Of a stretch of 29,164 nucleotides of DNA, positions 1 to 6,803 are shown piece after piece; position 1 is the stretch's first letter, and each line of letters opens with the position of its first letter. Position numbers and translations under genes: made by a program. The notes beneath the pieces were generated by a model. That model did no database searches, was not told where the DNA came from, and saw only the letters and a program-made list of their open reading frames with translations. This DNA comes from a virus, in the IMG/VR virus record IMGVR_UViG_3300009124_000074, positions 1 through 29,164 of that record. One strand, given 5' to 3'.

Positions 1-1535
1 AAGGGGAGGGTGAAACGCCACCTACACGCGGCAACGCCGTTCAACTCTCTCCAGAACAGAAGGAGCGGGCTCTAGCTCGCCGTCGTAATCGTCGAATCCG
101 TCGTGCTGCTGGTGTTGCGGCTGCGGTGGCCGGTGTGGGAGCTGCTATCGGTGGTGCTGCCTACTTGGGGGCCAAGAACCCAGCTAAAGCACGCCGCATG
201 GCAAACAAGCTGGCTGGGGGTGGTGCATCTGAAGCCCTGGGTGTTGTTTCTGCTATTGGCGGTCCCGCTGCTGCCGGTGTTGCTGGTGTCGCCAACCTGG
301 GAGTTGCAGGCTTCCAGACCGGAGCGAAGCTCGGAGCCGGTATTGCCCAACGCCGCCGCGCTGTAGGCCTCTACAAGAGCCTGATCAAACGCCGAGCTGT
401 GTTGTCTCGCCGCGTGGCCCAACTTGAGAAGGGCACTGGTTATTACCAAGGTTTTGTGACCCGAGCCCAGGCAAACCTGGATGCCAAGTGGAAGGTAAGA
501 GACGCGGCAAAGTTAAGCGCTGGCCGGGCAGGACAGCTTCAGCGTGGTTACAAGCTGGGTGAAAATCCCCGCTCAATCGCCCAGACCGATAAGATCCGCC
601 GTCAAAACATGCGGTCTTCCAGCAGAGGCCTGAGGGAAGCCAACAAACGTCTACGCGATGCCGAGAAAAATCTGAATGCACATTTACAGCAGCTTGAGGC
701 AGCCAAGAAGTCACTCAACAGCGTGACGTGGAAGGCCTCGAAGCTGCGTAAAGGGTTGACCACTGCCAGCAATCCCATCCGTAACGTGGTGGAATCCAGC
801 GTCAGTGGATCGAAAGCCGGTTTCCGTGCAGGTCGTCGCCAGGTTTCTGGCTTTATCCGCAATACGGGCCGTCGTGGTCCCAAACCTGACTCTCGCAGCT
901 GGCAAGAGCGTTTTGGTTTGGACGAATCCGAGCGCACTGATAAGAAGTGCGGCAACTCCGGTATCCCTGATAACGCCAAATGCTCAAAGAAGGGCACCGC
1001 TCGCAAGATCGCCAAGGCTGCAGCAGGAGCTGCTCTGATTGCAGGTGGTGCGGCTGCTCTGAAAAACCGTCGCAAAGTTGCATCTCGGTTTCGTCAGCGT
1101 GGGCTGACTAGCTACCAGAAGCAAGCATTGGAGCGGATGAAGGCCAAAGGGACTGGTAAGTACGGGACGCGGGCTGGGCGCAGCTTCACTTCCAACGAGA
1201 TGCCTTATTACACCGAAGCTGATCGTCCCCGTCCGCTTTACGACAAGCGGCTTTTCAAGAAAGACCTGGAATACAGGGGTGAGGAATTCGCGGGTTACAA
1301 CAAGCCCAAGCGCACTCCTGATCACCCAAAAAAGTCACACGCCGTCCTGGCTAAGGAGGGCGGCACTGTCAAGCTGATCCGCTTCGGACAGCAGGGAGTG
1401 AAGGGCAGTCCAAAGAAAGAGGGCGAGTCCAAGGCCTACGCAGCAAGACGACGCGCGTTTAAGGCTCGTCATGCCAGCAACATCAAGAAGGGAAAGATGA
1501 GCGCTGCCTACTGGGCTAATCGCTCTAAATGGTGA
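1..1535 (+). CDS. Basic Gly/Ala-rich head-region protein, 5'-truncated by the window
   Basis: The reading frame is open from base 3 to the stop at 1533-1535 (at least 510 codons), so the gene starts left of the window; the GTG at 126 lies inside a continuous, plausible protein. Its visible N-terminus is Arg-rich (ALARRRNRRIRRAAG), followed by several Gly/Ala-rich hydrophobic stretches (about 105-350) that could form membrane-active helices, then charged coiled-coil-like segments (about 360-460 and 610-760). A paired-Cys motif DKKCGNSGIPDNAKC lies at 939-983 and precedes another Ala-rich helix; the same motif recurs in the gene at 2851. The C-terminus (about 1356-1532) has KLIRFGQQG, RRRAFKARH and a final AAYWANRSKW, which I associate with a phage-protein C-terminal domain (DUF6321-like, from memory). 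Position beside the Mu F-type gene suggests a virion component; an internal or ejected protein is an inference. Specific function unknown. Confidence 0.8.
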   Translation, partial: GEGETPPTRGNAVQLSPEQKERALARRRNRRIRRAAGVAAAVAGVGAAIGGAAYLGAKNPAKARRMANKLAGGGASEALGVVSAIGGPAAAGVAGVANLGVAGFQTGAKLGAGIAQRRRAVGLYKSLIKRRAVLSRRVAQLEKGTGYYQGFVTRAQANLDAKWKVRDAAKLSAGRAGQLQRGYKLGENPRSIAQTDKIRRQNMRSSSRGLREANKRLRDAEKNLNAHLQQLEAAKKSLNSVTWKASKLRKGLTTASNPIRNVVESSVSGSKAGFRAGRRQVSGFIRNTGRRGPKPDSRSWQERFGLDESERTDKKCGNSGIPDNAKCSKKGTARKIAKAAAGAALIAGGAAALKNRRKVASRFRQRGLTSYQKQALERMKAKGTGKYGTRAGRSFTSNEMPYYTEADRPRPLYDKRLFKKDLEYRGEEFAGYNKPKRTPDHPKKSHAVLAKEGGTVKLIRFGQQGVKGSPKKEGESKAYAARRRAFKARHASNIKKGKMSAAYWANRSKW

Positions 1536-1684
1536 TGGACAAGTATCAAGCCAAGATCCTCAAGTGCTACCAGCAGGCCGATGCTTGCCTCACTCGTAAA
1601 CAAGCTAAAAAGCTAATTAAGAAGGCCGACAAGGCCCACCGTAAACACGAACAGAGACGGGAAGACAGTGGAAGATCTGATTGA
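1529..1684 (+). CDS. Small basic 51-residue ORF bridging two head genes
   Basis: An ATG at 1529 overlaps the stop of the upstream gene (TGA 1533-1535), a second in-frame ATG lies at 1535, and the stop is TGA 1682-1684, inside the next gene, which starts at 1668. The product (MVMDKYQAKILKCYQQADAC... ending EQRREDSGRS) is Lys/Arg-rich and probably helical, with two Cys. It fills the only gap between its neighbours, and both overlaps fit translational coupling, which is common in this window. No clear Shine-Dalgarno is visible and I recognise no family. It could be a real small accessory protein or a chance ORF that re-initiates ribosomes for the downstream GTG start. Confidence 0.45.
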   Translation: MVMDKYQAKILKCYQQADACLTRKQAKKLIKKADKAHRKHEQRREDSGRSD

Positions 1685-2528
1685 GGCCTATAACGCTGCC
1701 CTAAAGACTGAAGAACAGCAGACCATCGACATAGTCAATAAGGCTCTGGATAAGGGTTTCAATCGTCTTCTTCGTCGTACCTACTCTCAGTTACGAAGCG
1801 GTCAATTTCAGACTGCAGAGAGAAATGCTCGGACTTTGGAGCTGATCCCTCCTTTGCTTCCGGATCGATCTGACGAATACTCACTTGCGTTTCGACGCCT
1901 GATATCTCGCTCAACAACTTTTGGGCTAGATCTAGCTGCACAGCTATCATCGTCTGTAACAAGCTCTCAAGTCGCTGTAACTGTCCCAATAGAAGCAGTG
2001 ACAGCAGCAGCGAGGACAGCGAGAGGATACCTAGAACGACATGGACAAACATTTTCGACTACGGCTGCAGAAGTATTAGCGCAAGGCATTGCAGAAGGAC
2101 GCCCCACAGACGAGATAACGAAAGATCTGAAGCGACGCCTCAGTGTGACGAAGTCTCGGGCTGAGGTCATTGTAAGAACAGAGTCGCTCAGGGCTCATAA
2201 TGAGGCCTCTCGTAATTACTACACCCAGAATGGAATTGATCTGGTGATGTATTTCGCGACTTCAGATGATCGCTCTTGTCCTTACTGCACTGCCCATGCT
2301 GGTAATGTCTTCAAAAGAAATGCAATTTCTGTACCCCGTCATCCACGCTGCCGTTGCTATCTCGCTCCTTATTCTGACTCTGTATTTGACATAGATCCCG
2401 AATACGATCAGATGAGAAAAGCTCATCGTAAAGAAGTCCTTAGCTACGCTAGATCTAAAGGCGTGGATTTAAGTTATGGTCCTGCCTCGTTTGAATCACT
2501 AGCACCTACTCCGACGAGGGAGACATGA
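1668..2528 (+). CDS. Phage head morphogenesis protein, Mu F / SPP1 gp7 type
   Basis: This 286-residue protein has the signature of the Mu gpF-like minor head family: IVRTESLRAHNEA at about residues 168-180, then DDRSCPYC (Cys204, Cys207) and PRHPRCRC (His225, Cys228, Cys230) near the C-terminus, the last likely forming a metal-binding knuckle. The N-terminal half is helical and charged. Members bind the portal and are packaged in small numbers inside the procapsid; in SPP1 the homologue influences DNA ejection. The start is GTG 1668, because the same frame is closed by a TAA just upstream and no ATG lies between. The upstream sequence is only weakly Shine-Dalgarno-like, so coupling to the small ORF that overlaps it is likely. 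It ends in an ATGA overlap with the next gene. The family assignment is firm; the exact role in this phage is inferred. Confidence 0.93.
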   Translation: MEDLIEAYNAALKTEEQQTIDIVNKALDKGFNRLLRRTYSQLRSGQFQTAERNARTLELIPPLLPDRSDEYSLAFRRLISRSTTFGLDLAAQLSSSVTSSQVAVTVPIEAVTAAARTARGYLERHGQTFSTTAAEVLAQGIAEGRPTDEITKDLKRRLSVTKSRAEVIVRTESLRAHNEASRNYYTQNGIDLVMYFATSDDRSCPYCTAHAGNVFKRNAISVPRHPRCRCYLAPYSDSVFDIDPEYDQMRKAHRKEVLSYARSKGVDLSYGPASFESLAPTPTRET

Positions 2529-2860
2529 AAAAGAAGCCCGGCTTATACGCCAACATTAATGCCAAGCGTAAGCGTGGTGAGCCTATGCGTAAGCCCGGTG
2601 AAGAGGGCGCACCTTCCGCACAGGACTTCAAGGATGCAGCTAAGACTGCGAAGGGCAAGAAGGGTAAGAAAGACGGCTACAAGATGATGGATAAAGAAGG
2701 CTGCAAGGAATGTGGCGGCGGTAAGAAGCCTTGCCGCTGTGGCAAAGCGGACCTGGGTCGTAAAGGTCCATATGCCGATGGTTGTGGATACAACAAGGAC
2801 TCTGTTGCTGAGGAGTTCAACGCCATTTTGATTAACGACGGAGATTCAGCATGCAGCTGA
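2525..2860 (+). CDS. Small Lys-rich head-region protein with Cys cluster
   Basis: A 111-residue, very basic protein. Residues 3-43 (KPGLYANINAKRKRGEPMRK, then PSAQDFKDAAKTAK) match a short motif I recognise from small uncharacterised proteins of many tailed phages, where it sits near head genes. A second part has Cys60-x2-Cys63, Cys70-x-Cys72 and Cys87 in a Gly/Lys-rich context, which could bind zinc. The Lys-rich middle (GKKGKKDG) suggests nucleic-acid contact. The start ATG 2525 overlaps the upstream stop (ATGA), and the end overlaps the start of the following gene at 2851. Function is unknown; virion-associated or DNA-contacting roles are guesses from composition and location. Confidence 0.72.
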   Translation: MKKKPGLYANINAKRKRGEPMRKPGEEGAPSAQDFKDAAKTAKGKKGKKDGYKMMDKEGCKECGGGKKPCRCGKADLGRKGPYADGCGYNKDSVAEEFNAILINDGDSACS

Positions 2861-3432
2861 GCGCACCACGCAATGACAAAAAGTGCGGTGCCTCGGGTAT
2901 CCCAGACACCGCTAAATGCACTAAGGGCTCTGCTCTAGCTAAGGCGGGTAAAGCCGCACTCGGGGCTGGAGCAGTTGCCGGTGCTGCTTATGCCCTGAAG
3001 AAGGGTGGTGGACGAAAGCTTGGGAACTTCGCTCAACGCAAGATTGGTGAGGGCGGGAAGTTCAAGATGTCCGGCAAGTTCCTGAACAAGATGAAGCCGA
3101 TGTCAAAGACTGAACGACTGAACGTAACCGCTAAGAAAGCCAATAAGTCTGCTGAGCAGGCGATCAAGCGAGCCAAGGAAGCAGAAATCAACCGCGCTAT
3201 GGCAGTTGGTGAGGCTATGTATAAGAGCGGACAAGCCACCCGTGCATCACTGAATAGTGGAGTGCGTCGCCATCGCCTGACCGTAGAGAAAGCACGTCGT
3301 AAGTACGAGCCTGGTTATCCACGCCGTCGTCGTGATTTGGGCTCTTTCTATAAGGACGCCCAGAAGCAAACGGTCGAAGTCCGTGACCGTCTGTCCAAAA
3401 TCATGGACAACTATAAGCAGCGCACTCTGTGA
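2851..3432 (+). CDS. Basic head-region protein with paired-Cys motif and Ala-rich helix
   Basis: A 193-residue basic protein. Close to its N-terminus (2875-2919) it carries DKKCGASGIPDTAKC, nearly identical to the motif at 939-983 of the first gene, and as there the motif is followed by a Lys-containing segment and a Gly/Ala-rich hydrophobic helix (residues about 34-50). The remainder is Lys/Arg-rich and helical (about residues 75-130), ending in an Arg-rich region with PRRRRDLG. It starts at ATG 2851, ten bases inside the preceding gene, and its stop forms TGATG with a tiny downstream ORF. The composition resembles basic internal virion proteins, but no family is recognised. The shared module suggests that this protein and the first gene's product act on the same partner or compartment. 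Confidence 0.75.
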   Translation: MQLSAPRNDKKCGASGIPDTAKCTKGSALAKAGKAALGAGAVAGAAYALKKGGGRKLGNFAQRKIGEGGKFKMSGKFLNKMKPMSKTERLNVTAKKANKSAEQAIKRAKEAEINRAMAVGEAMYKSGQATRASLNSGVRRHRLTVEKARRKYEPGYPRRRRDLGSFYKDAQKQTVEVRDRLSKIMDNYKQRTL

Positions 3433-3512
3433 TGCAACCCGTCATCGTGTTTGGTGTGACGTGGATGCTGGGTATCCTGGCACTCACGATTTACATGACC
3501 CAAATCATGTGA
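3432..3512 (+). CDS. 26-residue single-membrane-segment microprotein (candidate)
   Basis: An ATG overlaps the preceding stop in a TGATG arrangement (stop 3430-3432, start 3432) and opens 26 codons ending with TGA 3510-3512. The product begins MQPVIVFGVTWMLGILAL and finishes TIYMTQIM: nearly all of it is hydrophobic, with a length suited to one membrane span and almost no charged residue. Coupling to the upstream gene gives it a way to be translated without its own Shine-Dalgarno. It may be a holin-like or membrane-anchored accessory peptide, or a chance ORF. Overlap style and composition are the only evidence. Confidence 0.4.
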   Translation: MQPVIVFGVTWMLGILALTIYMTQIM

Positions 3513-3551
3513 CTCGAATATCTGCTACATAGGTGCAACTGATTCAGTAAT

Positions 3552-3992
3552 TTGACCTGTATCAGCACACCAGCCCTTCATAGGGGCGCAAAAGGTGAGC
3601 ACCTGTTTGAGGGACATTTTCTCGAGCAGGGAATCTTTATTGCTGCTCCCAAGCACGATCTGCATCGCGTCGATTACGTCGTGGAGTGGAATGACAAGCT
3701 TGTGCGCGTCAACGTGAAGACTCTGCACTGGGTTAAATCCCAGAACTGTTATCACGCAGAGACCAGGACCAGCTGTCCTGGAGGCAACCGCACATACACA
3801 TCTGACGAGATCGATTACTTCGGCATCGTCAGTTTGGAGTATGGGCACATTTGGATGGTTCCCCTGTCTGCTACCAGGGGTACCTCTATCTCTTGGCATC
3901 CGCCGCAGAAAAGGCACAGGAAACGTGTGGACTCCTTTAATTGGGATCCTTACCTCATAAAAAGAGGTACGACATCAGTTCTTGATACTTAA
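3552..3992 (+). CDS. PD-(D/E)XK nuclease, I-Ssp6803I-like (putative free-standing homing endonuclease)
   Basis: 146 residues, matching the roughly 150-residue size of the I-Ssp6803I-type homing endonucleases (PDDEXK_5-like). The core fits the fold: GAKGEHLFE with Glu16, a strand with Asp41 in HRVDYVVEW, and VRVNVKTLHW with Lys56. The usual Q/E-x-K is N54-V-K56 here, a conservative but notable change. The later DEIDYFGIV and IWMVPL segments are typical of the family's second half. There is no ATG before the catalytic core. TGA 3540-3542 closes the frame upstream, so TTG 3552 is the only common start, and no good Shine-Dalgarno precedes it. Expression may be low, or the gene may be decaying. 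It interrupts the head operon between a structural gene and the protease-scaffold gene, as expected for a mobile nuclease. It could instead be a recombination or restriction-type nuclease. Confidence 0.72.
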   Translation: MTCISTPALHRGAKGEHLFEGHFLEQGIFIAAPKHDLHRVDYVVEWNDKLVRVNVKTLHWVKSQNCYHAETRTSCPGGNRTYTSDEIDYFGIVSLEYGHIWMVPLSATRGTSISWHPPQKRHRKRVDSFNWDPYLIKRGTTSVLDT

Positions 3993-4013
3993 GAGCTAAA
4001 CTTAGTTAGTATC
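3984..4013. repeat. Inverted repeat between nuclease and protease genes
   Basis: GATACT (3984-3989) and AGTATC (4008-4013) are exact reverse complements, with an inner TAAG/CTTA pairing, spanning the end of the nuclease gene and the 26-base gap before the protease gene. The stem is AT-rich and no T-run follows, so it is not a normal terminator. The stretch also has TTGATA (3982-3987) and TAGTAT (4007-4012), 19 bases apart, a poor match to a sigma70 promoter. It could be a promoter, an operator or an mRNA processing hairpin. Confidence 0.3.
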
Positions 4014-4018
4014 AGGGT

Positions 4019-5251
4019 ATGGAGACTGTCTCTCGCTACGATTACGGTCAAGTAACTAAATCCGAAGTAACGGATGAAGGTTATTTGAAAGTCTGGTGTA
4101 AAGCCGCCCGTGTTGGCACTCAGCTTTATACAAGGGGTGATGGCGCACAAGTGCGCGAATATCGCCCTGAAGATGAAGTAGCGAAGCCCGAGTCTCTAGC
4201 TTCCTTCGGTATGAAGGCAGTCACAATGGGGCATCCCCCCGTTCTGCTGGATTCCGGGAACACCAAAGTGCATCAGGTGGGCCATGCGGGTTCGCAGGTC
4301 CGTTACAACGATGGTTTTGTTGAAGTAGCGCTCCTTATTACTGATAAGGACGCTATTCAGCGTATCCAGCGTGGTGATGCACAGGAAGTAAGCGCGGGTT
4401 ACCGCGTCGACTTCGATCCTACCCCTGGTGTCACACCCCAAGGCGAAAGTTACGACGGCGTCCAGCGAAACATCCGCGTTAACCATATTGCGGTTGTTCC
4501 TCGTGGGCGTGCTGGTCGTGACGTTCGTTTAATCCTCGATTCATGTGATCGCAATGATGCGATTGCTTGGACTGAAAACCCGTCGAATTCGCCCGTTATT
4601 TCCATGGCACGAATCACCCTCGACGGCCTGGATCTTGAACTTCCCGCAGAAACTGCAGGCGCGGTCCAATCCTTCGCTAAGGAGGCTGAGCGTGCCAAGG
4701 CTGACCTCCAGAGCAAGCTGGATTCTCAGGAAGAACAGATTCAAGCCGTAGTTACCGAGAACGAAGAAACTCTTGGCCGTCTTGATGCGGCTCTGGAGCG
4801 TATCGAAGAACTAGAAAAGCAAATCGCCGAGTCTGCAGAACAGCGCGATGACGCTGCAGAAATCAACGAGGCCGTTAACACCCGTCTTGCTGCCCTCGAC
4901 AAGTTCGCTCCTCTTCTCCCTGAGGACTACAAGTTCGATGGCGAAGACGAGCACGGCATCATGACCCTCGCCTACGAAAACGTCTTTGAGAAAGCTCCTC
5001 GTGAGGATGCCTCAAATGACTATCTTCTCGGAATTCTTGACGGTGTTCTCGCCGCCATGGAAGACGTGGACGATGACGAGGAAGAAATTAAAGCCGACGC
5101 TGACTTCCAGCCCGAGGACGATGGTTCCAACGTTGCTGAAGTTCGTGCCGCCCTCGCTGCCGTTAACGGTGCCGAGAAGATGGATAGCTCTTCCTCCTAC
5201 CGCGAGCAACTGCTGAACGGTTGGAAGTCCGATCTCACTGCTCACGTTTGA
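4019..5251 (+). CDS. DUF2213-type prohead protease fused to coiled-coil scaffold
   Basis: 410 residues in two parts. Residues 1-175 fit the DUF2213 family, viewed as capsid-maturation proteases of the herpesvirus-assemblin type. Visible candidate catalytic residues are His72 in MGHPP, Ser125 in EVSAGYRVDFD and His156 in VNHIAVVPRGRAG; the SAGYR strand and the HIAVVP turn are typical of this fold. Residues 176-410 are acidic, with a predicted coiled coil at about 215-290 and an Asp/Glu tract near 348-358, as in scaffolding proteins. A single gene would thus supply scaffold and the protease that removes it, just upstream of cement and capsid genes. The start is ATG 4019 with only a weak AGGG upstream. 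Met196, at the domain boundary, could give a scaffold-only product but lacks a Shine-Dalgarno. The DUF2213 match is clear; the catalytic residues are inferred by pattern. Confidence 0.87.
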   Translation: METVSRYDYGQVTKSEVTDEGYLKVWCKAARVGTQLYTRGDGAQVREYRPEDEVAKPESLASFGMKAVTMGHPPVLLDSGNTKVHQVGHAGSQVRYNDGFVEVALLITDKDAIQRIQRGDAQEVSAGYRVDFDPTPGVTPQGESYDGVQRNIRVNHIAVVPRGRAGRDVRLILDSCDRNDAIAWTENPSNSPVISMARITLDGLDLELPAETAGAVQSFAKEAERAKADLQSKLDSQEEQIQAVVTENEETLGRLDAALERIEELEKQIAESAEQRDDAAEINEAVNTRLAALDKFAPLLPEDYKFDGEDEHGIMTLAYENVFEKAPREDASNDYLLGILDGVLAAMEDVDDDEEEIKADADFQPEDDGSNVAEVRAALAAVNGAEKMDSSSSYREQLLNGWKSDLTAHV

Positions 5252-5894: not shown

Positions 5895-6803
5895 ATGTCT
5901 GAAATCCGTAATGATGATGTCGGCCTGTTTCTTGCTCGCGAACTAGAGCAAGTCCTGGCCCGGACCTTTGAGGTTCAGTACGCCGACATTAAGTACAGCC
6001 AGGTTCTGCCTATCTCTACTGAGGTTGGTCCTGGTTCCGATAGTTTTACCTATCGCATTTTTGATGCACAAGGCAGCATGAAGCTGATTGCCGATAAGGC
6101 CAGCGACCTGCCCCGCGCTGACGTGCTGCGTAAGGAAGTCACTCATCAGGTCCGCAGCCTGGGTGCCTCCTTCGCTTACAGCATCCAAGAAACCCGTGCC
6201 GCCGCCATGGTGCCCGGCATGAATCTGGAGCAGCGTCGCGCTAACGCCGTGCGTCGTGCTTATGAGGAGAAAGTCCAGTCGATCGCCTTCTTCGGTGACT
6301 CTGGCGTCTCCATGGACGGCTTCTTCAACAACGCAAACGTTGATAAGACCATCCCCAGCAAGTGGTTCGATGACGCAACCATCACCACTGATGAAATGCT
6401 GGAGATCCTGAACGAGGCACCTACCCGCATCGTCCAGAACTCCAACATGAAGGAGTCCCCCAACACGATGCTCGTCCCCTACGACGTGTATCGCATCATC
6501 TCCACCACTCCTCGCAGCAGCACCTCCGACACCACGGTGATGGAGTTCTTCCTGCGTACCAATCCGTTCATCCGCTCCATCGAGCCGATCAACGAACTGG
6601 AGGCTTCCAAGTCTTCCCTGAGCAAGGACCGCATCATCTGCTACGACCGCAGCCCCGAGAAGGTTCAGCTCCACCTGCCCCGCACCCTGGAGTTCCTGCC
6701 TCCCGTGCGCCAGAACCTTGAGTTCTCCGTGGCAGCTCACGCCCGCATCGGCGGTGTCGCTCTGTACTACCCCAAGAGCGCCCTCTACGTCGAGAAGGCC
6801 TGA
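5895..6803 (+). CDS. Major capsid protein (DUF2184-like, HK97-type fold)
   Basis: 302 residues. The N-terminus (ARELEQVLARTFEVQYADIK), a SFTYRIFDAQGSMKLI strand, the AFAYSIQE-type segment, a long helix with AYEEKVQSIAFFGDSG and the MDGFFNNANV loop correspond to the DUF2184 / major_capsid_13 type of capsid protein, in which FG-x(4-6)-GFFNN is characteristic. The C-terminal LEFLPPVRQNLEFSVAAHARIGGVALYYPKS is the matching P-domain strand region. Length suits the family (about 300-340). It forms the icosahedral shell and follows the protease-scaffold and cement genes in the standard order. Codon choice is strongly biased to ctg, atc, acc, cgc and gag, as expected for the most highly translated gene. 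No long N-terminal delta domain is present, which fits a separate scaffold. Confidence 0.93.
   Translation: MSEIRNDDVGLFLARELEQVLARTFEVQYADIKYSQVLPISTEVGPGSDSFTYRIFDAQGSMKLIADKASDLPRADVLRKEVTHQVRSLGASFAYSIQETRAAAMVPGMNLEQRRANAVRRAYEEKVQSIAFFGDSGVSMDGFFNNANVDKTIPSKWFDDATITTDEMLEILNEAPTRIVQNSNMKESPNTMLVPYDVYRIISTTPRSSTSDTTVMEFFLRTNPFIRSIEPINELEASKSSLSKDRIICYDRSPEKVQLHLPRTLEFLPPVRQNLEFSVAAHARIGGVALYYPKSALYVEKA

Follow-up and report, generated by a model that had tools for sequence, protein, structure and literature searches.

The internal proteins of phage T4, Alt among them, and DarA and DarB of phage P1 are packed in the phage head; they act on the incoming genome or on the host machinery, which they modify or protect, in some cases by ADP-ribosylation. 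The T4 internal proteins carry short N-terminal capsid-targeting sequences that are cleaved. We know of no module combining a cysteine knuckle with a helix in any of these proteins. The MuF polymorphic toxins of temperate phages are encoded among head genes and join a constant N-terminal part to a variable C-terminal toxin part (PMC5576092). Polyvalent proteins are multidomain phage proteins encoded near virion genes, with kinase, ADP-ribosyltransferase (ART) and peptidase domains, and have been proposed to be injected (Iyer et al. 2017; PMC5512222). Neither paper contains the words cysteine or transmembrane. Here we describe a previously unnamed protein module found in an entire IMG/VR record of 29,164 bases (the window), probably a tailed-phage fragment, and in related phages.

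Results

Pfam and PHROGs matches in the window identify, among head genes, MuF, a prohead protease of the DUF2213 family, the major capsid protein (PF09950) and a cement protein and, for the tail, a lambda J-like protein. The gene order is that of the relatives, starting from inside the first module protein. The features relevant here, all on the + strand, are as follows.

3..1535 (+): module protein 1, 510 residues present, 5' end cut by the contig; 41-48% identity to orthologues of 513-549 residues
105..167 (+): Gly/Ala-rich hydrophobic segment behind the missing N-terminal four-cysteine module; sequence RRIRRAAGVAAAVAGVGAAIGGAAYL; AlphaFold2 helices 17-41 and 46-58, low confidence
939..983 (+): two-cysteine module copy 1, cysteines at 948-950 and 981-983; profile E 2.1e-12
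1008..1061 (+): Gly/Ala hydrophobic helix behind module copy 1, from sequence; AlphaFold2 helix 332-365, low confidence
1260..1532 (+): phrog_7595 domain at the C-terminus of module protein 1; PHROGs E 2.8e-36
1668..2528 (+): MuF minor head protein, module-free; Pfam PF04233, E 1.7e-14; phrog_115
2525..2860 (+): probable module protein 2 remnant, 111 residues, N-terminal phrog_16028 part; PHROGs E 1.6e-16
2851..3432 (+): module protein 3, 193 residues, module at residues 12-23, from sequence
2875..2919 (+): two-cysteine module copy 2, cysteines at 2884-2886 and 2917-2919; profile E 6.9e-12
2932..2997 (+): Gly/Ala hydrophobic helix behind module copy 2, from sequence; AlphaFold2 helix 28-51, low confidence
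4019..5251 (+): prohead protease (DUF2213) that bounds the cassette on the right; PF09979, E 7e-42; phrog_530
5895..6803 (+): major capsid protein, context marker; PF09950, E 8e-55

A preliminary description of the window had reported a shared motif, DKKCGxSGIPDxAKC with C-x10-C spacing, in two genes flanking a Mu F-type gene. Translation confirms this with exact positions, DKKCGNSGIPDNAKC at 939-983 (ORF 3-1535) and DKKCGASGIPDTAKC at 2875-2919 (ORF 2851-3432), and the match of ORF 1668-2528 to PF04233 establishes the MuF gene between them. The pair is the top 15-residue match between different ORFs of the window, with 13 of 15 residues identical as against 8-9 in shuffled ORFs, which rules out a chance origin and bears out the earlier contention that composition cannot explain the shared core. 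At the DNA level only 35 of 45 positions are identical, and synonymous codon changes have occurred at 7 of the 13 identical residues; the peptide is thus held by selection, and recent duplication is ruled out.

Orthologues of ORF 3-1535 contain within their first 46 residues a four-cysteine module (C-x6-CGGRCIPxxWNC), and the window begins directly behind it. About 46 N-terminal residues of module protein 1 therefore appear to lie beyond the contig end, and the complete gene probably has two modules. The phrog_7595 domain at its C-terminus, which matches many marine phages, exists on its own in the cultured marine phages S-H1 and KBS-S-2A, as a small gene close to that for the coat protein. 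ORF 2525-2860, between MuF and the second module copy, stops at ILINDGDSACS, adjoining the start of the next module gene; the corresponding proteins of relatives (compared, for example, with L215:9891-10646) run on into a module (...NDAERxDKPCGNSYIP...), and the window ORF looks like a remnant from which module and C-terminus were probably lost. In a search with the L215 homologue, its phrog_16028 N-terminus (window 2525-2660, KKKPGLYANINAKRKRGEPMRKPGEEGAPSAQDFK) proved common to Synechococcus, Prochlorococcus, Roseobacter and Pelagibacter phages. A PDDEXK-type nuclease gene (3552-3992; PF11645, phrog_5018) separates the module genes from the protease, and L215:12345-12803, in the equivalent position, matches this PHROG too. 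AlphaFold2 predicts both window module proteins as mostly helical, with module pLDDT at or below about 50. Neither contains a recognisable enzyme domain; Pfam matches of window proteins to RFX5 and HGTP_anticodon were weak, below the family cut-offs, and were dropped.

With a degenerate DNA pattern for the motif, later widened, 42 and then 97 viral contig stretches were retrieved and translated, and most of these contigs carry several module copies in neighbouring genes. The C-x10-C spacing is kept in 239 of 242 unique instances of [KR]xCGx[STG]xI, a pattern that leaves out the second cysteine, although one copy per locus in this set had been picked by a pattern containing it and the others had not. 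An alignment of 62 diverse cores leaves no residue invariant except C, G, I and C, and in particular no histidine or acidic ligand. A four-cysteine form, present in several apparently unrelated genes, has one extra cysteine 6-8 residues upstream and another at +4 (CGxxCI). Among 302 unique instances, both extra cysteines occur in 59, neither in 243 and only one in none; since the copies are related, the Fisher value of this table should not be read as a real probability. This all-or-none pattern indicates that the cysteines act as two pairs; on the plainest reading the extra two join each other and C1 is left to C12, and both pairs would most simply be disulfides. Nor do the modules look like a zinc knuckle or ribbon: most copies have two cysteines spaced x10, and the four-cysteine form is without a CxxC pair. 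That the two-cysteine form retains the same core makes a metal site less likely. Of the metal or disulfide knuckle proposed in the preliminary description, the metal is disfavoured; the two cysteines do behave as one pair, which would probably be a disulfide.

Further four-cysteine members include two proteins, each with a hydrophobic helix, at 932-4398 of a 154-kb viral contig (L183), the first of which runs on into an alpha/beta-hydrolase-like domain (GYSAGG). Another is a CGNACIPKDHKCRASWNKPVK segment with a helix at L164 5886-6377 (- strand); similar segments occur in L167, L173, L192, L194, L196 and L204, most of them within short proteins encoded by these phages. Four small bacterial proteins (L146, L148, L149 and L151) have a comparable four-cysteine knuckle, C-x5-CGx[ST]CI-x5-C, and N-termini that, judged by eye, are signal-peptide-like or lipobox-like, so that these look-alikes probably fold in oxidising compartments, which fits disulfides. 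They match the phage module profile weakly or not at all, the link being one of resemblance only, and the three that were scanned hit no Pfam or NCBIfam family. A lack of further occurrences, or helix-less ones in unrelated non-virion proteins, had been named beforehand as grounds for refutation. These are for the most part not borne out: copies elsewhere are plentiful, although the four bacterial proteins do show a similar knuckle without the helix.

Behind both window motifs, a basic segment and a Gly/Ala helix are seen, as first described, at about 1008-1061 and 2932-2997, and AlphaFold2 places a helix there in both proteins with low confidence. In 70% of 196 cases the best 19-residue hydropathy within 75 residues after the module reaches at least 1.2, compared with 5% of 448 random stretches from the same proteins and 3% of stretches before the module (p 3e-56). 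The helix hence belongs to the module, as had been suggested, and is weak or missing behind about 30% of modules and behind most N-terminal four-cysteine modules.

Whole-record searches of 24 related IMG/VR phage records with the core profile found 1-8 two-cysteine modules per record. The 90 copies in the 20 records tabulated are confined, record by record, to a single block of 1.5-7 kb, whose median extent is 8% of the record. ORF maps of 12 relatives follow the order terminase, portal, a module protein of 500-1500 residues, MuF, a module protein of 250-375 residues, further module proteins, protease, cement and capsid; PHROGs confirmed terminase, portal, MuF, protease and capsid in L215, and the order in the other relatives is taken from ORF sizes and positions. 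The module genes therefore lie in the portal-to-capsid block, as do genes for head-packaged ejected proteins, and the earlier placing of the motif among head-gene neighbours holds in the phages examined, where it occupies the portal-to-protease part. Modules occur at residues 300-1000 as well as at N-termini. No Pfam, PHROGs or NCBIfam family fell on the module itself in the proteins scanned, for which the tallies give positions for some members and not for all; the module profile matched no PDB sequence, and no description of the module was found in open-access papers.

What follows the module varies. The regions from the module to the protein end in 148 non-redundant proteins were tallied against domain families, giving kinase-like matches in up to 30, DnaJ in 10, LRAT in 7, NlpC/P60 in 3 and ADP-ribosyltransferase in 2, with 3 more for a phage RNA polymerase ADP-ribosylase profile (phrog_832), and single matches to lipase, hydrolase and peptidase profiles. 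Wherever a protein was positioned singly, the domain came C-terminal to a module. A kinase motif of the HxDxxxxN...D[FWM]G type is found in 31 proteins and HExxH in 7, always after a module; the kinase stretches match ordinary APH/RIO/Kdo/Pkinase profiles, and matches to a lethal-factor-like profile, below the family cut-off, correspond to the HExxH (zincin) group. Most module proteins have one recognised domain or none, and some, as in the window, have no recognisable enzyme domain; few show the two or more effector domains of a polyvalent protein, among them L131 with two kinase-type stretches and L109 with two HExxH motifs. The domains are exchanged: 27 proteins with one common N-terminal part of roughly 600 residues fall into eight unrelated C-terminal groups, and the gene between portal and MuF keeps its N-terminus while its C-terminus is swapped. 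Likewise, the similarity of some relatives to ORF 3-1535 ends at the module region, and that of L204 falls mainly in the C-terminal domain. The preliminary description had overlooked these variable enzyme domains, the four-cysteine form and the presence of up to eight copies per phage.

Several observations hint at cyanobacterial hosts. Contigs of a Thermosynechococcus metagenome-assembled genome (MAG) contain seven module copies, and one of them, 32,870 in length, equals an IMG/VR viral contig in size; among cultured phages, Synechococcus phage S-CBS4 has the closest protease (38% identity); and terminal segments are shared with cyanophages and other marine phages. None of the 24 records contains psbA, so these hints fall short of proof. 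The module was present in 1 of 386 cyanobacterial genomes, namely the MAG from which the search started (other phyla were covered by one exact DNA-pattern scan of contigs), and a prophage cassette common in cyanobacteria is thus unsupported. No cultured phage carrying the module was found: S-CBS4 has none in the 40 kb examined, and a tblastn search of cultured phages gave no match, which for so short and low-complexity a query is weak evidence of absence.

Discussion

What is the role of a module that recurs in neighbouring head genes? Taken together, its location, its repeated use, its helix and the swapped enzyme domains behind it suit head-packed, ejected effectors with a common delivery part, and on this evidence from sequence we rather favour an unnamed packing and delivery module serving a multi-gene set of such proteins. 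In the model that we propose, the core would consist of a knuckle closed between Cys1 and Cys12, probably as a disulfide staple, leading through a basic linker into the Gly/Ala hydrophobic helix. Reused as a common N-terminal or internal part of proteins encoded between portal and prohead protease, the module would allow these proteins to be packed into the head and to travel with the DNA. The helix would then probably lie in or across the host inner membrane, and the C-terminal kinase, zincin, ADP-ribosyltransferase, LRAT, DnaJ and other domains may act as interchangeable effectors in the newly infected cell. The suggestion in the preliminary description of a signal that places both proteins in one virion compartment is in our judgement the best reading; its example, membrane-active ejected proteins, goes only part of the way, since the enzyme domains point to ejected effectors and not merely to membrane-active ejection proteins. 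For the window phage itself the effector claim rests on its relatives, as its own two module proteins lack recognisable enzyme domains. The tail, which is lambda-like and includes a long tape-measure-like protein, counts against the model, in that membrane-crossing head proteins are not obviously needed.

The module might instead be a procapsid-targeting tag only, which binds the portal, the scaffold or another core protein, thereby carrying cargo into the prohead, and whose helix offers a surface for packing and is no membrane element. That a single phage has several copies, in different proteins encoded next to portal and protease, would suit such a tag, and the capsid-targeting sequences of T4 internal proteins offer a precedent; we nevertheless consider it somewhat unlikely, because the downstream helix is transmembrane-like in hydropathy and accompanies the module in 70% of cases, and modules at residues 300-1000 depart from a purely N-terminal signal. 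Hydrophobic helices and an apparent late-block location would also be expected of late membrane proteins or modifying enzymes that stay unpackaged in the producing cell and serve assembly, lysis control or superinfection exclusion. The tight linkage to portal, MuF and protease, a repertoire overlapping known ejected effectors (for example, the phrog_832 profile) and the constant N-terminus of the portal-MuF gene beside its swapped C-terminus make this role unlikely.

The remaining alternatives concern the cysteines and the origin of the repeat. It is conceivable that the cysteines bind metal, either through four ligands within a module or through a pair of modules that dimerise about a shared ion. 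In the four-cysteine form a full tetrahedral site might be present, and the all-or-none extra cysteines would also suit one metal-binding and one degenerate form. We regard this as distinctly unlikely, since the two-cysteine form keeps core and sequence while missing two of the four ligands, no histidine or acidic ligand is invariant and the bacterial look-alikes probably fold in oxidising compartments. That the repeat is a mobile peptide element or a recent gene duplicate devoid of common function, as many copies in tandem genes could suggest, is most improbable in view of the seven synonymous changes beside 13 of 15 residues kept in the window pair and of the invariant C, G, I and C over 62 diverse copies.

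If the packing and delivery model is correct, one short signature would uncover a great many candidate ejected effectors, as yet unannotated, in uncultured phages that may in part be cyanobacterial; kinases, zincins, ADP-ribosyltransferases and LRAT-type acyltransferases are among these candidates. The choice of head cargo by tailed phages would become testable, and a protein of choice could be packed into phage heads by means of a short tag. More tentatively, the module may be a widespread phage address label, a disulfide-stapled knuckle with a membrane helix by which many enzymes, several per genome, are sent to the host.

How does this set compare with known systems? With the T4 internal proteins and DarA/DarB it would share packing into the head, which we infer here, and, in some members, ADP-ribosylation. 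The bacterial look-alikes have a similar knuckle but no downstream helix or enzyme domain, and contain further cysteines. Kinase, ART and peptidase domains near virion genes recall the polyvalent proteins; in contrast to these, many mid-sized proteins are here united by one small module, and the kinases match ordinary profiles. The closest parallel is with the MuF polymorphic toxins, whose variable C-termini on a conserved N-terminus are found here in 27 proteins with eight C-terminal clusters; in both systems the genes lie among head genes beside the portal, and delivery with the virion is probable. Unlike those toxins, the module proteins have no MuF domain by Pfam, be it in the window, in the wholly scanned module proteins or among the families tallied for the 148 module-to-end regions; MuF is encoded apart, by a module-free gene of the same block, each phage has several cargo genes, and the constant part is a cysteine knuckle with a helix. 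Lacking a MuF domain, the module set falls outside the MuF polymorphic toxins, but it would work like them.
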